The notes under the pieces are model-generated. The model did no database searches and was not told where the DNA came from. It saw only the letters and a list, made by a program, of their open reading frames with translations. Shown here piece by piece: positions 26,674-36,529 of a stretch of DNA of 64,000 nucleotides. The position numbers and the translations under genes were made by a program. Each line of letters starts with the position of its first letter. Position 1 is the first letter of the stretch. The DNA comes from Acidimicrobiales bacterium (lineage in GTDB: Bacteria; Actinomycetota; Acidimicrobiia; Acidimicrobiales; AC-14): the NCBI GenBank assembly GCA_025463925.1, contig JAODBK010000049.1, positions 1-64,000 on the forward strand. Direction: 5' to 3'.

Positions 26674-26842
26674 TCGCAGTCCTCCCAGCCCGTCCCCGGA
26701 GTGTGCCAATGAGGCAATCGTCCGAAACCGGGCATTGGGTACGCCGCGGAGGCGATTCATCAGCCGGAAACATGCGGAGCCGCCGCCCGGCGAGCGCGGC
26801 GCACCGGTACCGTGGGTGTCTCGCGGTTGAAGGGGAGTGGGG

Positions 26843-27694
26843 ATGCGTACCTGCAAGGGGGCTGGCGTGCGGGCGACCGCGGTGGGTGCTGCCGCGCTGG
26901 CGCTCGTGGTGGCGGTGCAAGGCGCCGGTCTGGCGAACGCGGCACCGTCCGACCACCCGCAACATGTGATCCCCCAGAAGGGGACCCACCGGCGAGCCAC
27001 CGCGAACCTCGTCGATCACGGGGGCGGCGTCCTGCCCGCGTCGCACACCTATGCGATCTGGTGGGGCAGCCCGAGCGCCTTCCCGACTGACGCGCACACC
27101 GAGATTCCCGCGCTGCTCTCGGGTTTGGCCGGCCCGACGTACACGGGGATCGCCAGCCAGTACATGCCGAGCTCGAGGGCGACCTCGTCGTACGTCGCCG
27201 CGGCAACCGACACGTCGGCGCCGCCGTCACGATCGCCGGCGACCGCCACGATCGTCGACGAGGTCGGGCGCGTGATCGCCGCCAACGCCGCCAACGGGTG
27301 GAGTCCCGATCCGACGGCGATGTACTTCGTCTACACGAGCACGTTTCCGAGCCACGTCAACTACTGCGCCTGGCACTCCTACGGAACGGTGGGCGGTACG
27401 ACCGTCCAAGTCGCGTACATGCCCAACACCGCGGGCATCGCCGGCTGCGATCCCGGCGCGGTCTACGACACCACCCACTACACGGAGGGGACGCGGTCGC
27501 TGGCCAACGTGACCGCGCACGAGTTCATGGAAGCGATCACCGATCCCACCCTCACCGCCTGGTACGACCCCTCGGGTCAAGAGATCGGCGACAAGTGCGC
27601 GTGGCAGTTCTCGGGCACGGTGTCGCTCGGCGGCAGGGGTTGGCAACTCCAGCAGGAATGGAGCAACTCGGCCACCGGCTGCGTCCAGACATAG
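26843..27694 (+). CDS. Secreted EXORDIUM-like (phosphate-induced) protein
   Basis: A 283-residue exported protein with signal peptide 1-34 (ending GLANAAPSD). The body reads HTYAIWWGSPSAFPTD, an NYCAWHSYG segment with paired Cys, and a late block NVTAHEFMEAITDPTLTAWY followed by DPSGQEIGDKCAW. This HExxE...TDP...AWYD...EIxDxC block is the hallmark of the plant EXORDIUM/PHI-1 family and its bacterial relatives, and it looks like a zinc-metallopeptidase site. The role in bacteria is unknown; a cell-wall or extracellular protease function is an inference. ATG 26843 has GGGGAG five bases upstream. It lies just before the large membrane protein gene. Confidence 0.75.
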   Translation: MRTCKGAGVRATAVGAAALALVVAVQGAGLANAAPSDHPQHVIPQKGTHRRATANLVDHGGGVLPASHTYAIWWGSPSAFPTDAHTEIPALLSGLAGPTYTGIASQYMPSSRATSSYVAAATDTSAPPSRSPATATIVDEVGRVIAANAANGWSPDPTAMYFVYTSTFPSHVNYCAWHSYGTVGGTTVQVAYMPNTAGIAGCDPGAVYDTTHYTEGTRSLANVTAHEFMEAITDPTLTAWYDPSGQEIGDKCAWQFSGTVSLGGRGWQLQQEWSNSATGCVQT

Positions 27695-27772
27695 GTCGCC
27701 GCAACAGCATCGCGGCTCCCGGCATCGAGATGCGACGATGGGGGCCTGGGCGGGTCGAGGGAAGGAACGGAG

Positions 27773-30139
27773 ACGGGGCGCTTTGCGGGGTGGCGCGAAG
27801 GCGCGTTCCCACGGGCGTCGGAATGGCCGCTGCGCCGCCGGACCACCGATTGGCTCCGGCTGGTCATTGCCGCGGTCGCCGTCGTCGCCGTCACCCGCCA
27901 CGCCGGCGCGCCGACCGCGAGCGAGCGCGCCCTCTACGACCTGATCCGGTCGTTCCCTTCGGCCGTTGATCCCGTCTGGCGCGCGCTCTACGGCGGCGGC
28001 GCCCTGTGGGCCGTCTGCCTGGTGGTGTCCGCGGCGGTGGTTGCTCGACGTCGGCAACTCGCGCTCGAGCTCTTGCTCGCCGGCGTCCTGGCCCGAGCCT
28101 TGGGGCAGGCCCTGCGCAACGTCGTGGGCACGTCGGCGCACGGGCTGTTGCATGCGACCGGCACCACGACGGGATTCCCGTCGATTCGCGTCGCGATCGT
28201 CGTCGCGGTGGCCGCAACGGCCGCGCCATTCGTCACCCGTCCGACCCGCATCGTGGGCAAGGTCCTCGCCTTCGGAGTCGCGCTGGCGGCCATGGGGTCG
28301 GGCCATGCCGACCCCGACGGTGCGGCTGCCGCGCTCCTGATCGGTTGGGGCATCGCCGCCGGCCTGCACCTCATCTTCGGATCGCCGGGCGGCCGGCCGG
28401 GGCCGCTGGCGGTTGCCAACACCCTCCGGAATCTCGGCGTCATGGCTCGTGACGTCGAGCTGCCCGAAGAGCAGCTGTCGCCGGGAATGACGGTCATGCG
28501 CGGCTTCGACGCCACCGGACCGTTGCGCATCAACGTGTTCGGGCGTGATGAAGCTGACGCGCAACTGCTGGCCAAGATCAGACGAGTCCTGCTGTTCAAG
28601 GACAGCGGCGCCGGCCTGTTCCTCACCAGACGGGAACAGGTGGAGCACGAGGCCTACGTGATGCTCCTGGCGCGCAGCCATGGCATTCGGGTCCCGGACG
28701 TCGTGGTCGCTGGGGACGCCGGCGGAGGCGCGGCGGTGCTCGTCCAGCGCGAGATCGGGGGTGTCCGCCTGCGCGATGCCGATCGAGACACGGTGGACGA
28801 CGCCGTGCTCGACGAGGTGTGGCATCAGGTCAAGGCGCTGCACGCCGCGGGCATCGTGCATGGACGCCTGGACGGAGATCACGTGTTCCTCACGGCCGAC
28901 GGGCCGGCCCTCGTCGGGTTCACGACCGGCCGAACGAGCCACCAGGCGCGAGGGTCGACGCAGGACGTCGCCGAGCTCCTGGCCGCGACGAGCGCGATTG
29001 CCGGACCCGAACGGGCGCTGGCCGCGGCCACCCGGGCCTTGACGCCCGAAGTCGTCCTGCCCGCGCTGCCCCTTCTGCAGCCCGCGGCGCTCACGCATCA
29101 GACACGCGTGCTCCTCGGTGGCGCGCGCCATGCCCGCAGGCGCACCGACCGGCTTCGGGAGGTCGCGGCCGGGGTCCTCGGCGTCGACCCACCCGCCGTC
29201 ACCCAACTGCACCGAGTCAAGCCGTCGAGCGTCGTCATGGCTGCCGGCTCGCTCGTTGCTGCCGGCGGACTTCTCGCCGGGGTCGGATCACCCAGCAAGG
29301 TCTGGGCGGCGCTGACGAATGCCGAATGGCAATGGCTCACCTTCGCCCTCGCACTCTCGTTGGCGACCAACATCGGATACGCCGTTGCGCTCCAGGGCAC
29401 GGTGCAGCAGCGCCTTCCCCTGGTGCCGACGACCGAGCTGCAGGTTGCGATGTCGTTCTCGAACCTTGCCGTACCGGCCCTCGGCGGCATCGCCATGCAG
29501 GTGCGCTATCTGCAGCGCCAGGGAGTCGATCTCGTGTCGGCGGTCGCCGCCGGAGGTCTGCTCAGCTCGGTTGCGAATGTGGCCGTGTCGGCCGGGGTGG
29601 TGGGCGCGGCCTTGGCCGCACAACCGACGACGTTCAGCGTCTCCCTCGTCCCGACGACTGGACTGGCCGTGACCGCCCTCGGCGCCATCGGTGTCGCCGG
29701 TTTGGCGGCGGCGATCATCGCCGGCATCCCGCGCATCCGCGGTGCCGTCTTCCCGCCGGTTCGCCAGGCGGCGTCGACGATGTGGCAATCGCTTCGCCGG
29801 CCGCGCCTGTTGGCGCTGTTGGTCGGTGGCAACATCGTGGTCGCCCTCATGCTCGGCGGTTGTCTTGCGGCTTCGCTCGCAGCCTTCGGGGGGAGTGCTC
29901 CGTTCGGATCGATCCTCGCCGTCAGTATCGCGGTGCAGACGATCTCGGCCCTGGTGCCCGTTTCCGGCGGCGGGACGGCGTTGTCGGCGGTCGGGCTCTC
30001 GGGGGCGCTGGTGGCAATGGGCGTCGTCCGCCCCGTGGCGGTGGCGGCCGCGCTCACCGATCAGGTGGTCATCAGCTACCTTCCGGCGCTGCCCGGTTGG
30101 TTCGCGACCCGCCACCTCCTCCGCAACGACTACCTCTGA
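27773..30139 (+). CDS. PAP2-like/pseudokinase/LPG-flippase membrane protein
   Basis: The protein is about 788 residues. An N-terminal membrane region (about 20-210) is spaced like a PAP2 phosphatase, but GFPSIR replaces PSGH and GSGHADPDG replaces the second His motif. A kinase-like region (about 230-430) has HGRLDGDHVFL and LVGFTTG in place of the HRD and DFG motifs. The C-terminal eight-helix UPF0104/LPG_synthase_TM domain (about 460-788) resembles lipid flippases such as the MprF N-terminus. The first ATG/GTG/TTG in frame is GTG 28022, but the frame is open back to 27695 and reads like protein. The best start is ACG 27773, spaced 7 nt from AAGGA, as if ATG had changed to ACG. Domain calls are from motif reading. 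Confidence 0.75.
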   Translation, partial: TGRFAGWREGAFPRASEWPLRRRTTDWLRLVIAAVAVVAVTRHAGAPTASERALYDLIRSFPSAVDPVWRALYGGGALWAVCLVVSAAVVARRRQLALELLLAGVLARALGQALRNVVGTSAHGLLHATGTTTGFPSIRVAIVVAVAATAAPFVTRPTRIVGKVLAFGVALAAMGSGHADPDGAAAALLIGWGIAAGLHLIFGSPGGRPGPLAVANTLRNLGVMARDVELPEEQLSPGMTVMRGFDATGPLRINVFGRDEADAQLLAKIRRVLLFKDSGAGLFLTRREQVEHEAYVMLLARSHGIRVPDVVVAGDAGGGAAVLVQREIGGVRLRDADRDTVDDAVLDEVWHQVKALHAAGIVHGRLDGDHVFLTADGPALVGFTTGRTSHQARGSTQDVAELLAATSAIAGPERALAAATRALTPEVVLPALPLLQPAALTHQTRVLLGGARHARRRTDRLREVAAGVLGVDPPAVTQLHRVKPSSVVMAAGSLVAAGGLLAGVGSPSKVWAALTNAEWQWLTFALALSLATNIGYAVALQGTVQQRLPLVPTTELQVAMSFSNLAVPALGGIAMQVRYLQRQGVDLVSAVAAGGLLSSVANVAVSAGVVGAALAAQPTTFSVSLVPTTGLAVTALGAIGVAGLAAAIIAGIPRIRGAVFPPVRQAASTMWQSLRRPRLLALLVGGNIVVALMLGGCLAASLAAFGGSAPFGSILAVSIAVQTISALVPVSGGGTALSAVGLSGALVAMGVVRPVAVAAALTDQVVISYLPALPGWFATRHLLRNDYL

Positions 30140-30934: not shown

Positions 30935-33900
30935 TCAGGTGACGGTCAGGTTGACCGTCTTGCTGCTGAGGGCGTACGTGGTGTCGCCCACGAAGCCGAC
31001 CGTGATCGGGTAGCTGCCAGGCGACTTGGGTGCCGTCACCGACACGGTGGCGACGCCGAGGGCGTTGGTCGTGACGCTGTGACTGCGACCGTTGAACGTG
31101 AACTTCAGGGTCTTGCCCGCGATGGGCGCTCCGCCGCTCGTCACGAGGGTGGCCGACAACGTGATGGTCGCATTGCGCGCCGCCGTGGTCGGGCCGGTGT
31201 AGGTGACCACGGTCGGGACCGTTACCGACAATGTGGCCGACGCGTTCGACGGGCCGTCGGCGGCGTCGCCGGCGAAGTTGATCCCGATGGCGTACGAGCC
31301 GGCGTTGGCCGGAGCGGTCACCGCGACGGTGGCCACTCCGATGGTCGGTCCGGACGTGCCGGTCGTCACGCTGTAGGTCGACCCGTTCAGCGTGAAGGCC
31401 ACGGTCCGTCCCGCGAGCAACGCGCCACTGCTCGTCTTGAGCGTCGCGGTGAGGTTGACAGTCGCCCCGACGATGCCGGACGTCGCCCCCGTATAGGTGA
31501 GCGCGGTGGACACCCGGGCGGCGAGAGTCAACGTCCTGGTGGCGGGCGCATAGGTCGCGTCGCCGGCGAACGCCACGGTCATCGGGTACGTGCCGGCGAT
31601 GGCTGGCGCCGTGGTGGCCGCCGAGGCCACCCCCTTCGCACTGGTCGTCGTGGTGAAGATGGTGCCGTTGAGCGTGAACCTCACGACGCGCCCCGCCAGC
31701 GCGGCCCCGCCGCTCGTCTTGAGGGTCGCGGACAGCGTGATCTTGGCGCCCGGCGTGGACGACACGACTCCGGTGTAGGTGAGGACCGCCGCGAGCTTGA
31801 CGTCATGGCTCGCGGTCGCGAAGGAACCGAGGACGACGCCGTCGCCCGCGTAGGTCGCGGTGATCGTCTTGGTGCCGGTGGTGGTGGACGTCAAGTCGCA
31901 GCTGAACGTGTGACTCGCGATGGTCGCCGTGCACGACGCCGCTCCGTCGCTCACCGCCACCGTGCCGGTGGCGGCCGTCCCGCTGGAGATGACGGTGCCG
32001 GCGACGGCGTATGCCTGACCGACGGCGGTCGGTGCCGACAGGTCCGACGTGATCGCGGTGACGGTCGTGGGGAACCCGGTCGACTCGTATGCCCCGCTGT
32101 CGCACGCGGTGCCGAGCGGGCGGGCCACGCCCCGCTGGTCGGTGGCCGGGCAATCGGCTCCCGACACCGGGACTCGGTCGACCGCGGCGCTGCCCGCGCC
32201 CAGCGCCATCGTCTTCGTCGGTCCGCCGTTGTCGGCGAGGGCGGCGAGCTTGGGGTCACCCGAGAAGAACCCGCTCGGGCACTGGGCATCCGCAGGGTAG
32301 GTGACGTTGCGCAGGAGATCGGTGGTCGACCCGGTGCCGCCGCAGTTGCCGACCACGATGCTCCCGCCAACCGGGGCGGCGACATTGTTGGCGAGGATGC
32401 TGTTCTCGACGGTCGCGCTGCCGTCGTTGAACAGGCCGGCCGCGATATAGGTCGTGCTGTTGCCCGCGATCGTGCTGTCGCGGACGGTGAGCGTGCCGGA
32501 GGTGCCGTTGTAGATGCCCGCGCCGTAGTAGTCGGTGGTGTTGCCGGCGATCGTGCTGTTGGTGACGGTCGTCGTGCCCTGGTTGACGAGCCCGCCGCCG
32601 AGGAACCAGCCGCTGTTGCCGGAGATCGTGCTGTTCGTCACCGTGACGGTGCCGGAGTAGCTGGAGATCCCTCCGCCGTAACTCCGGTTGCCGGACAGCG
32701 TGCTGTCGGTGAGCGCCACCGTGCCGGCGCCGTTGTAGATTGCACCGCCCTGGTACCCGTCGTCGGTGGAGTTGCCCGACAGCGTGCTGTTGACGATGGT
32801 CAGGCTGCCGATGCCGTTGCGGATGCCGGCGCCGTTGTCATCGGCGAGGTGGCCGTTCGTCAGGTTCACCTCGTTCAGTGTCAGGTCGCTGCTGTTGCGG
32901 ATCAGCCGGAATGCTGACGTGGACCCGTCCCGGGTGATCGTCGACCCGTTGCCGTTGACGGTGAGCGGGCCGTCGTTGCCCAGCCCGCTGTTCGCCGTCG
33001 ACAGGTCGTGCACCGTGGTCAGCGTGAAGGTGCACGCCGACCCGAGCTCGATGGTGTCCGCCCCGGCATGGCTGTTCGCGGCCGTGAAGGCATCGGCGAG
33101 AGCTTGCTCGTTGTCGGACGCGGTGCCGCTGCATGCGACGAGGAACGACTTCGCCGCCGAGGCCGAGTCGGACGCGGTGTTGCCGGCCCCGTCGGTGGCG
33201 ACCACCGAGTAGGTGATAGGTCCCGAGAGTGCCGAGAGGTTCAGCGACGTGAACGACCAAGCGCCGGTCGTGCTGTCTGCGGTCGTGGAGTCGGTGACGT
33301 TGTGCGCCGGGGTGCCGTCGGCCACCGTGAGGTCAACGCTGTCACCGGGCTCGGCCGTTCCGGAGGCCGCCGCCGAGGTGTCGTTTGCCGTGGTCACCGG
33401 GTCGGTCACGAGGGTGATGGCAACGCTGGTGGTGGTGTCGATCGTCCACGAGTAGCTGGCGGCCGAGCTGGTGTTGCCTGCGGCGTCCGTCGCGACCACC
33501 TGGTAGGTGTGTGGCCCGGCTGAGAGCGGATCGGTGTAGGTCGTCGGCGCGCAGATCGAGAAGCCGCCACCGTCGAGCTCGCAGGAGAACGTCACCCCGC
33601 CTTCGGTGTCGCTGACCGTGAACGACGCCGACGTCACCTTGGTGGTGAGCTCCGGGGTGGCGGTGTAGGTGGGCGCGGGTGGAGCCGTCGTGTCCACGGT
33701 GATCGGCCAGGCATGGCTGTAGCCGTTGTTGCCGGCGTCGTCGGACTGGGTCGCTCGGGCGGTGTAGTCACCCTCGGCCAGCGCGGGGGTCGCGTGCACC
33801 GAGTACGCACCGGTGGCGCCGTCTCTAGGCGCGTTGACCTGCTCGACGGGGACGTCGGTGGTGAAATCCGGCGTCGTGCCGCTGTAGATGTCGATGACGA

Positions 33901-36529
33901 CGATGGCCGAGTCACCGATCGTCGTGCCGCCGACGCCGGAGAAGACCGCGGTCGTGTCGTTGGTGGGGTTGGCCAGGAGATCGAGGCTCACGGTGGGCGC
34001 GGTGCCGTCGACGGTCCACGAGAAGCTGGCGGCCTGGCTGACGTTGCCGGCACCGTCGACGGCGACGACCTCGAACGTGTGAAGGCCTTCGGGCACGGTC
34101 CCGCCGTTGGCGCCGTACGACGTCGGCGAGAGACACGCCGACAGGGTGTCGCCGTCGAACTCGCACTGGAAGGTCACACCGGCCTCGGTGTCGGAGAAGG
34201 AGAACGAGGCGCTCGTGACATGGGTGAGCGTCGCCGGGCTGTCGGTGATCGACGGCGCCGGCGGGGCGCTGGTGTCGACGGAGAAGGTCGTCGCCACCGA
34301 CGTGGTGCAGTTCGACCCGTCGTCGCACTGGGTGGCGGTGGCCGTGTACGTGCCGTCACTCAGGGCCGCGAACGACGCGTCGGCCGACGAGTCGTAGGTC
34401 CAGGACGCGCCGGTGCGATCGACCGTGGCGGTGCGGACCACGCTCGGAGTCGAGTCGGACACGTCGATCGCCACCGTCGTGCCGTCACCGGAAGCGTTGC
34501 CCGCCGCGCCGGAGAACACCGGCGTGGCCCCGGTCGCGCCGGACGGCGCGGTGATCGTGACCGACGGGGCCGTGGCGTCGATCGTCCACGTGAAGGTGGC
34601 CGCGGTGCTCGTGTTCCCCGCGCCGTCGGTGGCCTTGACGTCGAACGTGTGGGATCCCTCGGCGATTGGTCCGGCATAGATGGCCGAGGACGAGCACGAC
34701 GCGAACGCCGCGCTGTCGAGCCGGCAGCTGAAGGCAACTCCACCTTCTGCGTCGGTGTAGTCGAACGACGCCGATGTGGCGCTGGTGATGAGGTCGGGGG
34801 TGCTGGTGAACGACGGTGTCGGCGGCGCGGCCGTGTCGACGGTGAAGGTGGACTCGGTGCTGTGGCCGATGTTGCCGACGCCGTCGGACTGTTCGGCGCG
34901 CGCCGTGTAGGTGCCTTCGGCGAGTACCGGAGAGGCGTCCACCGAGTACGCCCCGGTGAGACCGTCGCGGCTGGTGGTGAGGTGTTCGGTCGGCGTGTCC
35001 GCGACGTAGTCCGGGGCGGCACCGGCGTACACGTCGACCGTGACGGTCGCGGAATCGCCGCTGGCGTTGCCGGCGATGCCGGAGAAGGTCGGGGTCGTGT
35101 CATTGGTGGCGCTCGTCACCGCGTCGAGGCTGACGGTGGGCGCGGTGGTGTCGATCGTCCAGTCGAAGCTCGCGGCCGCGCTGATGTTGTTGGTCGCCGA
35201 TTCCACCGCCTTCACGTGGAAGGCGTGCGCGCCGGCTGCGATCGGCCCCGCGTAGGCAGCGGGCGAGGTGCACGCCGAGAACGCGGCGGCGTCGAGTGCG
35301 CAGCGGAAGGTCACGCCGGCGTCGGTGTCGCTGAACGAGAACGAGGCGGATGTGGCGATCGTGCTGGCCGCCGGGTGGGCGGTGATGGACGGGACGGCCG
35401 GGGAGCTGGTGTCGAGCTCGTAGGCGCCGATGTCGCACGCGCTGCCCTGCGGCCGGACCGCGCCACGCTGGTCGGTTGCCGCGCAGTCGGCGCCCGAAGC
35501 GGGCACGGTGTCGAGCGCCGCGCTCCCAGCGCCCAGCGCCATCGTCTTGGTCGGACCTCCGTTGTCGGCCAACAGGCCGAGATGGGGATCGCTGGAAGAG
35601 AAGCCGGAGCAGCTCGGGTCGCTCGGATAGCTGATGTTGCGGTGGTTGTCGGTCACGCCACCACCGCAGTTCGAGGTGTGGGTGAATGCCCCCGGGCCCG
35701 TCCCGGCGATGTTGCCGGCGAAGATGGTGTTCTCGGCGCTGGTCGCGCCGTAGAGGGTGTACGTGCCGCCGCCGCCGAGGAGCGCGCTGTTGCCCGCGAT
35801 CGTGCTGTTCACGATCGTGGTGGTCGGCGAGTTCGGCGTGACTCCGGTGAAGATGGCCGCGCCGTACCCGAACGGGCCGGCTGCGGTGTTGCCCGAAAGG
35901 GTGCTGTTGCTCACCGTCAGCGTGTTGTCGTTCAGGATCCCGCCGCCGTAGATCGCGCTGTTCCCGGAGATGGTGCTGCGATTCACGCTCGCAACTCCGG
36001 TGTTGTAGATCCCGCCGTTGGCGGTGTTCCCGGAGATCGTGCTGTCGTTGACGTGCAACGTTGCGCCGGCGAAGTTGCCGATCCCGGTATTGACGCCGTT
36101 GCTGAGCGTCAGGCCGTTGAGGGTGAGGTCTCCGTTGTTCCCGACGATCCCGATGAACGCTGACCCGGTGCGGGTGATGGTCGACCCGTTGCCGTTGACG
36201 GTGAGGGTGCCCGGGCCGCCCCAACCGACGCCTGAGCCGCCGTAATGGGCCGACGTCACCTCGAAGGTGCAGCCCGAACCCAACTCGATGACGGCGGGTC
36301 CGCCGTGGGTGGCCGCGGCTGAGAACGCGTTCACGAGGGCCTGTTCGTTCAGCGCGGCGGTGCCAGTGCAGCCGACGTCGACGGTGAAGGGAACGGCGGT
36401 GGCGAACGCCGGCGACAGCGCCAGCGCGGTCGCCGTCGTCACCGCCACCGCGACGACGATCGCCATCGAGCGGCGGCCGAGCCGGCCGCGACCGCGGTCG
36501 AAGGTGCGTGCTGCCCCCAAGTGCTCCAT
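30935..36529 (-). CDS. Giant secreted protein: two beta-helix modules, Ig repeats
   Basis: A 1864-residue exported protein with a signal peptide of about 47 residues (long basic start, AFATAVP). Beta-helix module 1 (about 50-376) opens with NEQALVNAF and is full of STISGN/STIAGN turns, ending in DNGGPTKTMALGAGS and ACDIGAYEL, the choice-of-anchor Q pattern. Residues about 376-1130 alternate two Ig-like types four times each (TSASFSFSDTEAGVTFQC and NDTTPTFSG). Beta-helix module 2 (about 1130-1500) repeats the layout of module 1. Four Big_3-like domains (TYTG...LSATLKTSGGAPLAG) finish the protein. It has no LPxTG or C-terminal anchor, so it is probably a released or wall-associated adhesin. The ribosome site GGGAG precedes ATG 36529. 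Probably TetR-regulated. Confidence 0.92.
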   Translation of the reverse strand: MEHLGAARTFDRGRGRLGRRSMAIVVAVAVTTATALALSPAFATAVPFTVDVGCTGTAALNEQALVNAFSAAATHGGPAVIELGSGCTFEVTSAHYGGSGVGWGGPGTLTVNGNGSTITRTGSAFIGIVGNNGDLTLNGLTLSNGVNTGIGNFAGATLHVNDSTISGNTANGGIYNTGVASVNRSTISGNSAIYGGGILNDNTLTVSNSTLSGNTAAGPFGYGAAIFTGVTPNSPTTTIVNSTIAGNSALLGGGGTYTLYGATSAENTIFAGNIAGTGPGAFTHTSNCGGGVTDNHRNISYPSDPSCSGFSSSDPHLGLLADNGGPTKTMALGAGSAALDTVPASGADCAATDQRGAVRPQGSACDIGAYELDTSSPAVPSITAHPAASTIATSASFSFSDTDAGVTFRCALDAAAFSACTSPAAYAGPIAAGAHAFHVKAVESATNNISAAASFDWTIDTTAPTVSLDAVTSATNDTTPTFSGIAGNASGDSATVTVDVYAGAAPDYVADTPTEHLTTSRDGLTGAYSVDASPVLAEGTYTARAEQSDGVGNIGHSTESTFTVDTAAPPTPSFTSTPDLITSATSASFDYTDAEGGVAFSCRLDSAAFASCSSSAIYAGPIAEGSHTFDVKATDGAGNTSTAATFTWTIDATAPSVTITAPSGATGATPVFSGAAGNASGDGTTVAIDVSDSTPSVVRTATVDRTGASWTYDSSADASFAALSDGTYTATATQCDDGSNCTTSVATTFSVDTSAPPAPSITDSPATLTHVTSASFSFSDTEAGVTFQCEFDGDTLSACLSPTSYGANGGTVPEGLHTFEVVAVDGAGNVSQAASFSWTVDGTAPTVSLDLLANPTNDTTAVFSGVGGTTIGDSAIVVIDIYSGTTPDFTTDVPVEQVNAPRDGATGAYSVHATPALAEGDYTARATQSDDAGNNGYSHAWPITVDTTAPPAPTYTATPELTTKVTSASFTVSDTEGGVTFSCELDGGGFSICAPTTYTDPLSAGPHTYQVVATDAAGNTSSAASYSWTIDTTTSVAITLVTDPVTTANDTSAAASGTAEPGDSVDLTVADGTPAHNVTDSTTADSTTGAWSFTSLNLSALSGPITYSVVATDGAGNTASDSASAAKSFLVACSGTASDNEQALADAFTAANSHAGADTIELGSACTFTLTTVHDLSTANSGLGNDGPLTVNGNGSTITRDGSTSAFRLIRNSSDLTLNEVNLTNGHLADDNGAGIRNGIGSLTIVNSTLSGNSTDDGYQGGAIYNGAGTVALTDSTLSGNRSYGGGISSYSGTVTVTNSTISGNSGWFLGGGLVNQGTTTVTNSTIAGNTTDYYGAGIYNGTSGTLTVRDSTIAGNSTTYIAAGLFNDGSATVENSILANNVAAPVGGSIVVGNCGGTGSTTDLLRNVTYPADAQCPSGFFSGDPKLAALADNGGPTKTMALGAGSAAVDRVPVSGADCPATDQRGVARPLGTACDSGAYESTGFPTTVTAITSDLSAPTAVGQAYAVAGTVISSGTAATGTVAVSDGAASCTATIASHTFSCDLTSTTTGTKTITATYAGDGVVLGSFATASHDVKLAAVLTYTGVVSSTPGAKITLSATLKTSGGAALAGRVVRFTLNGTIFTTTTSAKGVASAATTAPAIAGTYPMTVAFAGDATYAPATRTLTLAARVSTALTYTGATSGIVGATVNLTATLKTSSGALLAGRTVAFTLNGSTYSVTTGTSGPTIGVATVAVTAPANAGSYAIGINFAGDAADGPSNASATLSVTVPTVVTYTGPTTAARNATITLSATLVTSGGAPIAGKTLKFTFNGRSHSVTTNALGVATVSVTAPKSPGSYPITVGFVGDTTYALSSKTVNLTVT

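Follow-up and report, generated by a model that had tools for sequence, protein, structure and literature searches.

The window analysed here, a 64,000-nucleotide stretch of DNA from an Acidimicrobiales bacterium, carries a gene that raises the question of how a lipid flippase might function when it is fused to two degraded enzyme domains. The open reading frame (ORF; 27773..30139, on the plus strand, as are all features of the protein given below) encodes 788 amino acids plus a stop codon and comprises a PAP2-like domain, a pseudokinase and an MprF-type flippase. A sequence-only reading of this locus had held that both enzyme-like domains are dead and that only the flippase looks intact. Alignment with relatives adds to this earlier observation of two dead enzyme domains a replacement of the flippase salt bridge, which is shared by a whole clade. 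The window protein is probably a conserved variant that has no enzyme activity and moves lipid in a different way.

The ORF is real and is contained in an uninterrupted frame of 814 codons (27695-30139), which follows an in-frame stop at 27692-27694. GC content by codon position is flat from 27695 to 27772 (0.69/0.73/0.69) and coding-like from 27773 (0.73/0.64/0.89), and a strong third-position GC bias (0.83-0.89) extends from about 27773 to the stop codon of the ORF. Because this bias begins near 27773, the N terminus of the protein is coding and the coding start lies close to this position. A scan of the frame, however, revealed no ATG, GTG or TTG between the upstream stop and position 28022, which corresponds to codon 84, and thus the first 83 residues lack a standard start. 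Either translation begins at an unusual codon (ACG at 27773 or 27767, or CTG at 27746) or the assembly sequence contains an error, and expression of the gene is uncertain for this reason. The candidate ACG start has the sequence AAGGA upstream. A frame error near the N terminus was considered and rejected, since the ATG codons at 27730, 27738 and 27823 lie in other frames and their translations, judged by eye, do not resemble the family start.

Residues 1-210 (27773..28402) constitute a PAP2-like membrane domain that has lost its catalytic residues, as assigned by AlphaFold2, Foldseek and Pfam PAP2 matches in relatives. The AlphaFold2 pLDDT is 77.9 for the whole fusion protein and 84.1 for these 210 residues modelled alone, which was done because Foldseek with the whole model returned kinases or kinase-containing proteins. 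The top matches to the separate model are PgpB, LpxE and G6PC, with TM values of 0.61 (TMq) for PgpB (5jki) and 0.68 (TMt) for LpxE (6ebu); matches to these two phosphatases have a probability of 1.00 and span TM values of 0.55-0.68 and E values of 0.02-0.12. The Pfam PAP2 profile does not match the window protein, whereas other members of the family match it strongly, with E = 1.3e-17 for L076. The structural evidence therefore places the N terminus with PgpB and LpxE, rather than with some other fold.

All three PAP2 catalytic motifs (KX6RP, PSGH and SRX5HX3D) are missing from the window protein. Residues 134-139 (28172..28189) read GFPSIR in place of PSGH, just as had been noted from the sequence, with Arg139 at the catalytic His position. 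This exchange of His for Arg is present in 23 of the 25 members of the clade to which the protein belongs and in 27 of 40 proteins in the rest of a larger subfamily that has lost both catalytic sets. The second His motif had been described as lacking, and the in-register motif is indeed absent; however, an H-x3-D string does exist, in GHADPD (28301..28318), where (S/R)x5Hx3D is expected. Its His178 sits one residue off the register set by a conserved Pro, and the matching catalytic position is mostly Ala or Gly in other clade members. Both the Arg that precedes the H-x3-D position and the PSGH His are absent. We therefore rejected an active PAP2 enzyme acting through H178-x3-D182 and treat the string as coincidental.

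The adjoining residues 211-475 (28403..29197) form a Bud32/RIO-like pseudokinase domain, as indicated by AlphaFold2, Foldseek and a weak NCBIfam match. Foldseek returns PRPK, Bud32 and Rio2 kinases (PRPK 6wqx, TMt 0.66, E = 7.2e-6), and the predicted fold is that of a Bud32/PRPK-like kinase and no other. Pfam kinase matches are all sub-threshold, and the NCBIfam Bud32 score (36.9 bits, E = 2.5e-9) falls short of the 125-bit cut-off for an equivalog, that is, for the KEOPS kinase. Four catalytic residues are missing together: Asn254 (28532..28534) occupies the position of the VAIK Lys; the catalytic-loop remnant HGRLDGDH (residues 363-370, 28859..28882) has Arg365 for the HRD Asp and His370 for the Asn, the latter exchange being found in 19 of the 25 clade members; and GFTTG (residues 382-386, 28916..28930) carries Gly382 for the DFG Asp. 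Both degenerate motifs had been correctly picked out in the sequence-only reading. Judged by sequence, the set of Asn254, Arg365, His370 and Gly382 speaks against the binding of ATP/Mg by the window protein.

Fusions of a PAP2 domain, a kinase domain and an MprF flippase are widespread in Actinomycetota. Among sampled genomes, matches to the fusion protein, some of them partial, occur in 99 of 397 from the order, 119 of 395 from the class and 61 of 396 from the phylum; these wide searches scored two candidates per genome, such that paralogue counts are lower bounds. A related-locus search yielded no locus with the single protein as query and 19 with an alignment. Named relatives come from metagenome-assembled genomes of Acidimicrobiia and other Actinomycetota, and from Cellulomonas; those in the window protein's own clade are all metagenome-assembled. 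Full-length similarity of the window protein to relatives reaches 52%. Members such as L008, L071, L072 and L076 keep both the PAP2 motifs (KX6RP, SGH and RX5HX3D) and the kinase motifs (K, HRD, N and DFG), others keep the kinase motifs only, and a large subfamily has lost both sets. The existence of members with intact motifs means that those of the window protein were lost. Thus, the double catalytic loss proposed earlier is confirmed by alignment, but it is common to a large subfamily rather than peculiar to this protein, and some members of the protein's own clade retain the Lys, the HRD Asp or the DFG Asp. Within one architecture the family thus includes PAP2 and kinase domains at every stage from intact to dead, so that the conversion of enzyme to pseudoenzyme can be traced residue by residue.

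The C-terminal domain (residues 484-788, 29222..30136) belongs to the LPG_synthase_TM family of MprF-type flippases. Pfam PF03706 matches residues 494-775 (E = 5.4e-15) with 56.1 bits, which exceeds the 33.4-bit cut-off, and the flippase profile matches Pseudomonas aeruginosa MprF (PaMprF, chain 9goe) with E = 0.002. In PaMprF, E295 and R319 are reported to form a conserved salt bridge between TM7 and TM8, and P326 to serve as a hinge (PMC11980842). The family hallmark is PxPGGxGxxE followed by an Arg seven residues ahead of the hinge Pro, and the profile alignment matches its Glu, Arg and Pro exactly to these three PaMprF sites. Where the family has PxPGGxGxxE...R, the window protein has PVSGGGTALS...Q: the altered hallmark lies in VPVSGGGTALSAVG (29954..29995), and the residues at the positions of E295, R319 and P326 are Ser738, Gln764 (30062..30064) and Pro771.

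These exchanges define a rewired clade. Among 107 aligned members, the salt-bridge Glu is present in 82 of 82 proteins outside the clade and in none of the 25 inside, which have Ser (16), Gly (8) or Ala (1); the Arg is found in all 81 outside proteins with a residue at that site and, again, in none of the 25 (Gln in 24, Pro in 1). Further phylum-level relatives with a readable motif also keep the Glu. The distance from PxP to the Arg or Gln is 35 in all 25 clade members and 34 in 80 of 81 others, such that the clade has one extra residue between the two salt-bridge sites. A further aligned one-residue insertion, Gly594 in the window protein (29552..29554), is present in 25 of 25 and is a gap in 82 of 82 others. 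New polar sites are nearly fixed in the clade, comprising N533 as well as Glu555 (24 of 25, compared with 7 of 82 others) and Gln576 (24 of 25, compared with 1 of 82), the latter two within 29435..29500; P507 and P618 are among the further fixed or nearly fixed differences. The earlier impression that the flippase alone is intact is thus refuted at its hallmark site, with the Glu-Arg pair gone from the entire clade.

Trees built without the motif columns recover the 25-member clade as monophyletic (FastTree 99, IQ-TREE SH-aLRT 98), with the window protein grouping with L109-L111 (support 99), and a single evolutionary origin of the rewired clade would be the simplest account of its sequences. 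Within the clade, purifying selection acts on each of the three domains, including the dead ones. For four clade pairs, Nei-Gojobori dN/dS values, which are approximate because dS is 0.6-1.1, range over 0.13-0.27 for PAP2, 0.18-0.39 for the kinase and 0.08-0.24 for the flippase. These ratios, well below 1, led us to reject decay of the dead domains in the clade. At flippase identities of 0.45-0.55, the PAP2/kinase identities are 0.47/0.45 in the clade, compared with 0.34/0.38-0.40 in the rest. Purifying selection on domains that lack their catalytic residues fits a non-catalytic role.

The explanation we favour, at roughly even confidence, is that the fusion protein has been remodelled, having no enzyme activity but a neutral polar flippase gate, and that in it the pseudo-PAP2 and pseudokinase domains have non-catalytic roles. 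According to this model, the C-terminal domain would still carry lipid across the membrane, through a pathway gated by the neutral polar Ser738 and Gln764 instead of a charge pair, with the possible involvement of Glu555 and Gln576. The pseudo-PAP2 domain, with Arg139 at the former catalytic His position, might bind a lipid that carries a phosphate and leave it uncleaved; the pseudokinase may act as a scaffold or a ligand-binding switch, like the pseudokinase on mycobacterial MviN/MurJ. A role for the dead modules as lipid or nucleotide sensors, as suggested in the sequence-only reading, is possible. More tentatively, the clade-wide neutral pair of Ser or Gly with Gln could mean that lipid passes through another kind of gate, or that another substrate is moved, under the control of the pseudophosphatase and the pseudokinase in the protein.

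Loss of the charge pair need not abolish transport, given that the PaMprF variants R319A, R319E and E295Q transport lipid normally and E295R does so faster (PMC11980842). Evidence against a remodelled gate comes from Staphylococcus aureus MprF, in which alanine mutants of the same pair increase daptomycin sensitivity (PMC11980842), a result that by analogy is consistent with loss of function. A doubtful but possible model holds that all three domains are inactive, such that the protein is a pseudo-transporter serving as a membrane scaffold or receptor subunit for an active canonical paralogue. Indeed, the hallmarks of all three functional sites are lost, several genomes carry two clade members, and the genome studied here encodes four other PF03706 proteins, including a full-length fusion paralogue, all with Glu at the corresponding motif. 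However, the flippase is the most constrained domain in three of the four clade pairs (dN/dS 0.08-0.09), which together with the conserved new polar residues in the membrane suggests a working membrane pathway, and the transport-competent PaMprF mutants also speak against inactivity.

It is unlikely that the window copy is simply a decaying gene, although the absence of ATG, GTG and TTG ahead of codon 84 is what decay might produce, as are the longest terminal branch (0.7) in its four-member subclade and its departures from its own clade: Ser for Pro in PxPGG, Gly at W712 and Gln at R112. Given these off-clade residues at several conserved sites, the window protein might work less well than related proteins do. 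Decay is nonetheless hard to reconcile with the 814-codon open frame, the coding-like GC bias throughout the ORF and the full-length similarity to relatives. Still less probable is that the PAP2-like or kinase-like domain remains enzymatic with catalytic residues that have migrated, for example to H178-x3-D182 or to Asp367/Asp369. The H-x3-D spacing, the kinase residues kept by some clade members and the precedent of bacterial pseudokinases with other chemistry (SidJ, in PMC12599244) favour this idea, and it is opposed by the out-of-register and unconserved H178, by the missing KX6RP and PSGH His, and by the joint loss of all four kinase residues.

Structures of the MprF flippase domain come from R. 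tropici and P. aeruginosa. The window protein shares with this domain its Pfam and profile family, the hinge Pro (Pro326, equivalent to Pro771) and part of the PGG motif, and differs in having Ser738/Gln764 for E295-R319 and a one-residue insertion. Unlike MprF, a bifunctional lysyl-PG synthase and flippase, it carries no C-terminal aminoacyl-PG synthase domain (DUF2156, by Pfam), ends after the flippase domain and is fused to PAP2-like and kinase-like domains. Its N-terminal domain resembles PgpB of B. subtilis and LpxE of A. aeolicus in fold and in the placement of motif segments, but lacks their catalytic motifs and has the conserved clade Arg at the PSGH His. Similarly, the kinase-like domain shares its fold and weak sequence similarity with Bud32/PRPK and RIO kinases, but not their catalytic residues, and it is part of a membrane-embedded fusion rather than a KEOPS subunit. 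In Mycobacterium tuberculosis MviN, a pseudokinase on a flippase recruits FhaA (PMC12599244). This MviN/MurJ system (ActPs3, PMC12599244) likewise joins a lipid flippase and a degraded kinase in one actinomycetotal polypeptide, and by analogy offers a precedent for a regulatory scaffold. MviN, however, has a MurJ-type flippase joined to a carbohydrate-binding domain and to a pseudokinase of the Ser/Thr type at the C terminus, whereas the window protein has an MprF-type flippase and a Bud32/RIO-like pseudokinase between two membrane domains; PF03706 is its only flippase match in Pfam, with no MurJ/MviN domain.

A literature search did not find this three-part architecture or the rewired clade. 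The role of the MprF salt bridge is disputed, in that a proton-gated barrier has been proposed for RtMprF whereas PaMprF mutants still scramble lipid (PMC11980842). A natural clade that lacks both partners, and yet strongly conserves the domain, offers a direct route to deciding between a gate, a specificity element and a mere stabiliser as the function of the bridge. If the remodelled-gate model is correct, evolution has itself tried out, in the rewired clade, another gate or another substrate for the movement of lipid.

Comparison with the gene regions of other clade members revealed no conserved neighbours of the window gene that hint at a pathway. Upstream lie a minus-strand DUF2510 ORF, a plus-strand gene for a putative secreted protein and an ABC-2 transporter pair. 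The ORF for the putative secreted protein (26837-27694, plus strand; 285 amino acids, no Pfam match) shares the reading frame of the fusion gene and ends at the stop codon directly ahead of it. Downstream are a TMEM175-type channel, with a TMEM175-like match in one other region, and a large Ig-like repeat protein (30938-36529, minus strand; 1864 residues) that combines a beta-helix with repeated bacterial Ig-like domains (Big_13 and Big_3_5) and is probably a surface protein. Shared neighbours occur only in a freshwater subclade of the family (L098, L100, L144, L145 and L149), in which genes that by eye appear anti-sigma-like and ECF-sigma-like lie 0-1 kb away.

The second full-length fusion in the same genome (L002; G000:C47:40013-42331) has both PAP2 His residues (FPATH and GAHFPID), a degraded kinase and an intact flippase Glu and Arg. 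Several genomes carry two fusion paralogues (L118 with L130b, L090 with L128, L107 with L129, and L029 with L050), and it is possible that such pairs are heteromeric partners. Both paralogues of a pair are often members of the rewired clade, and L118, L128 and L129 form a separate subclade.
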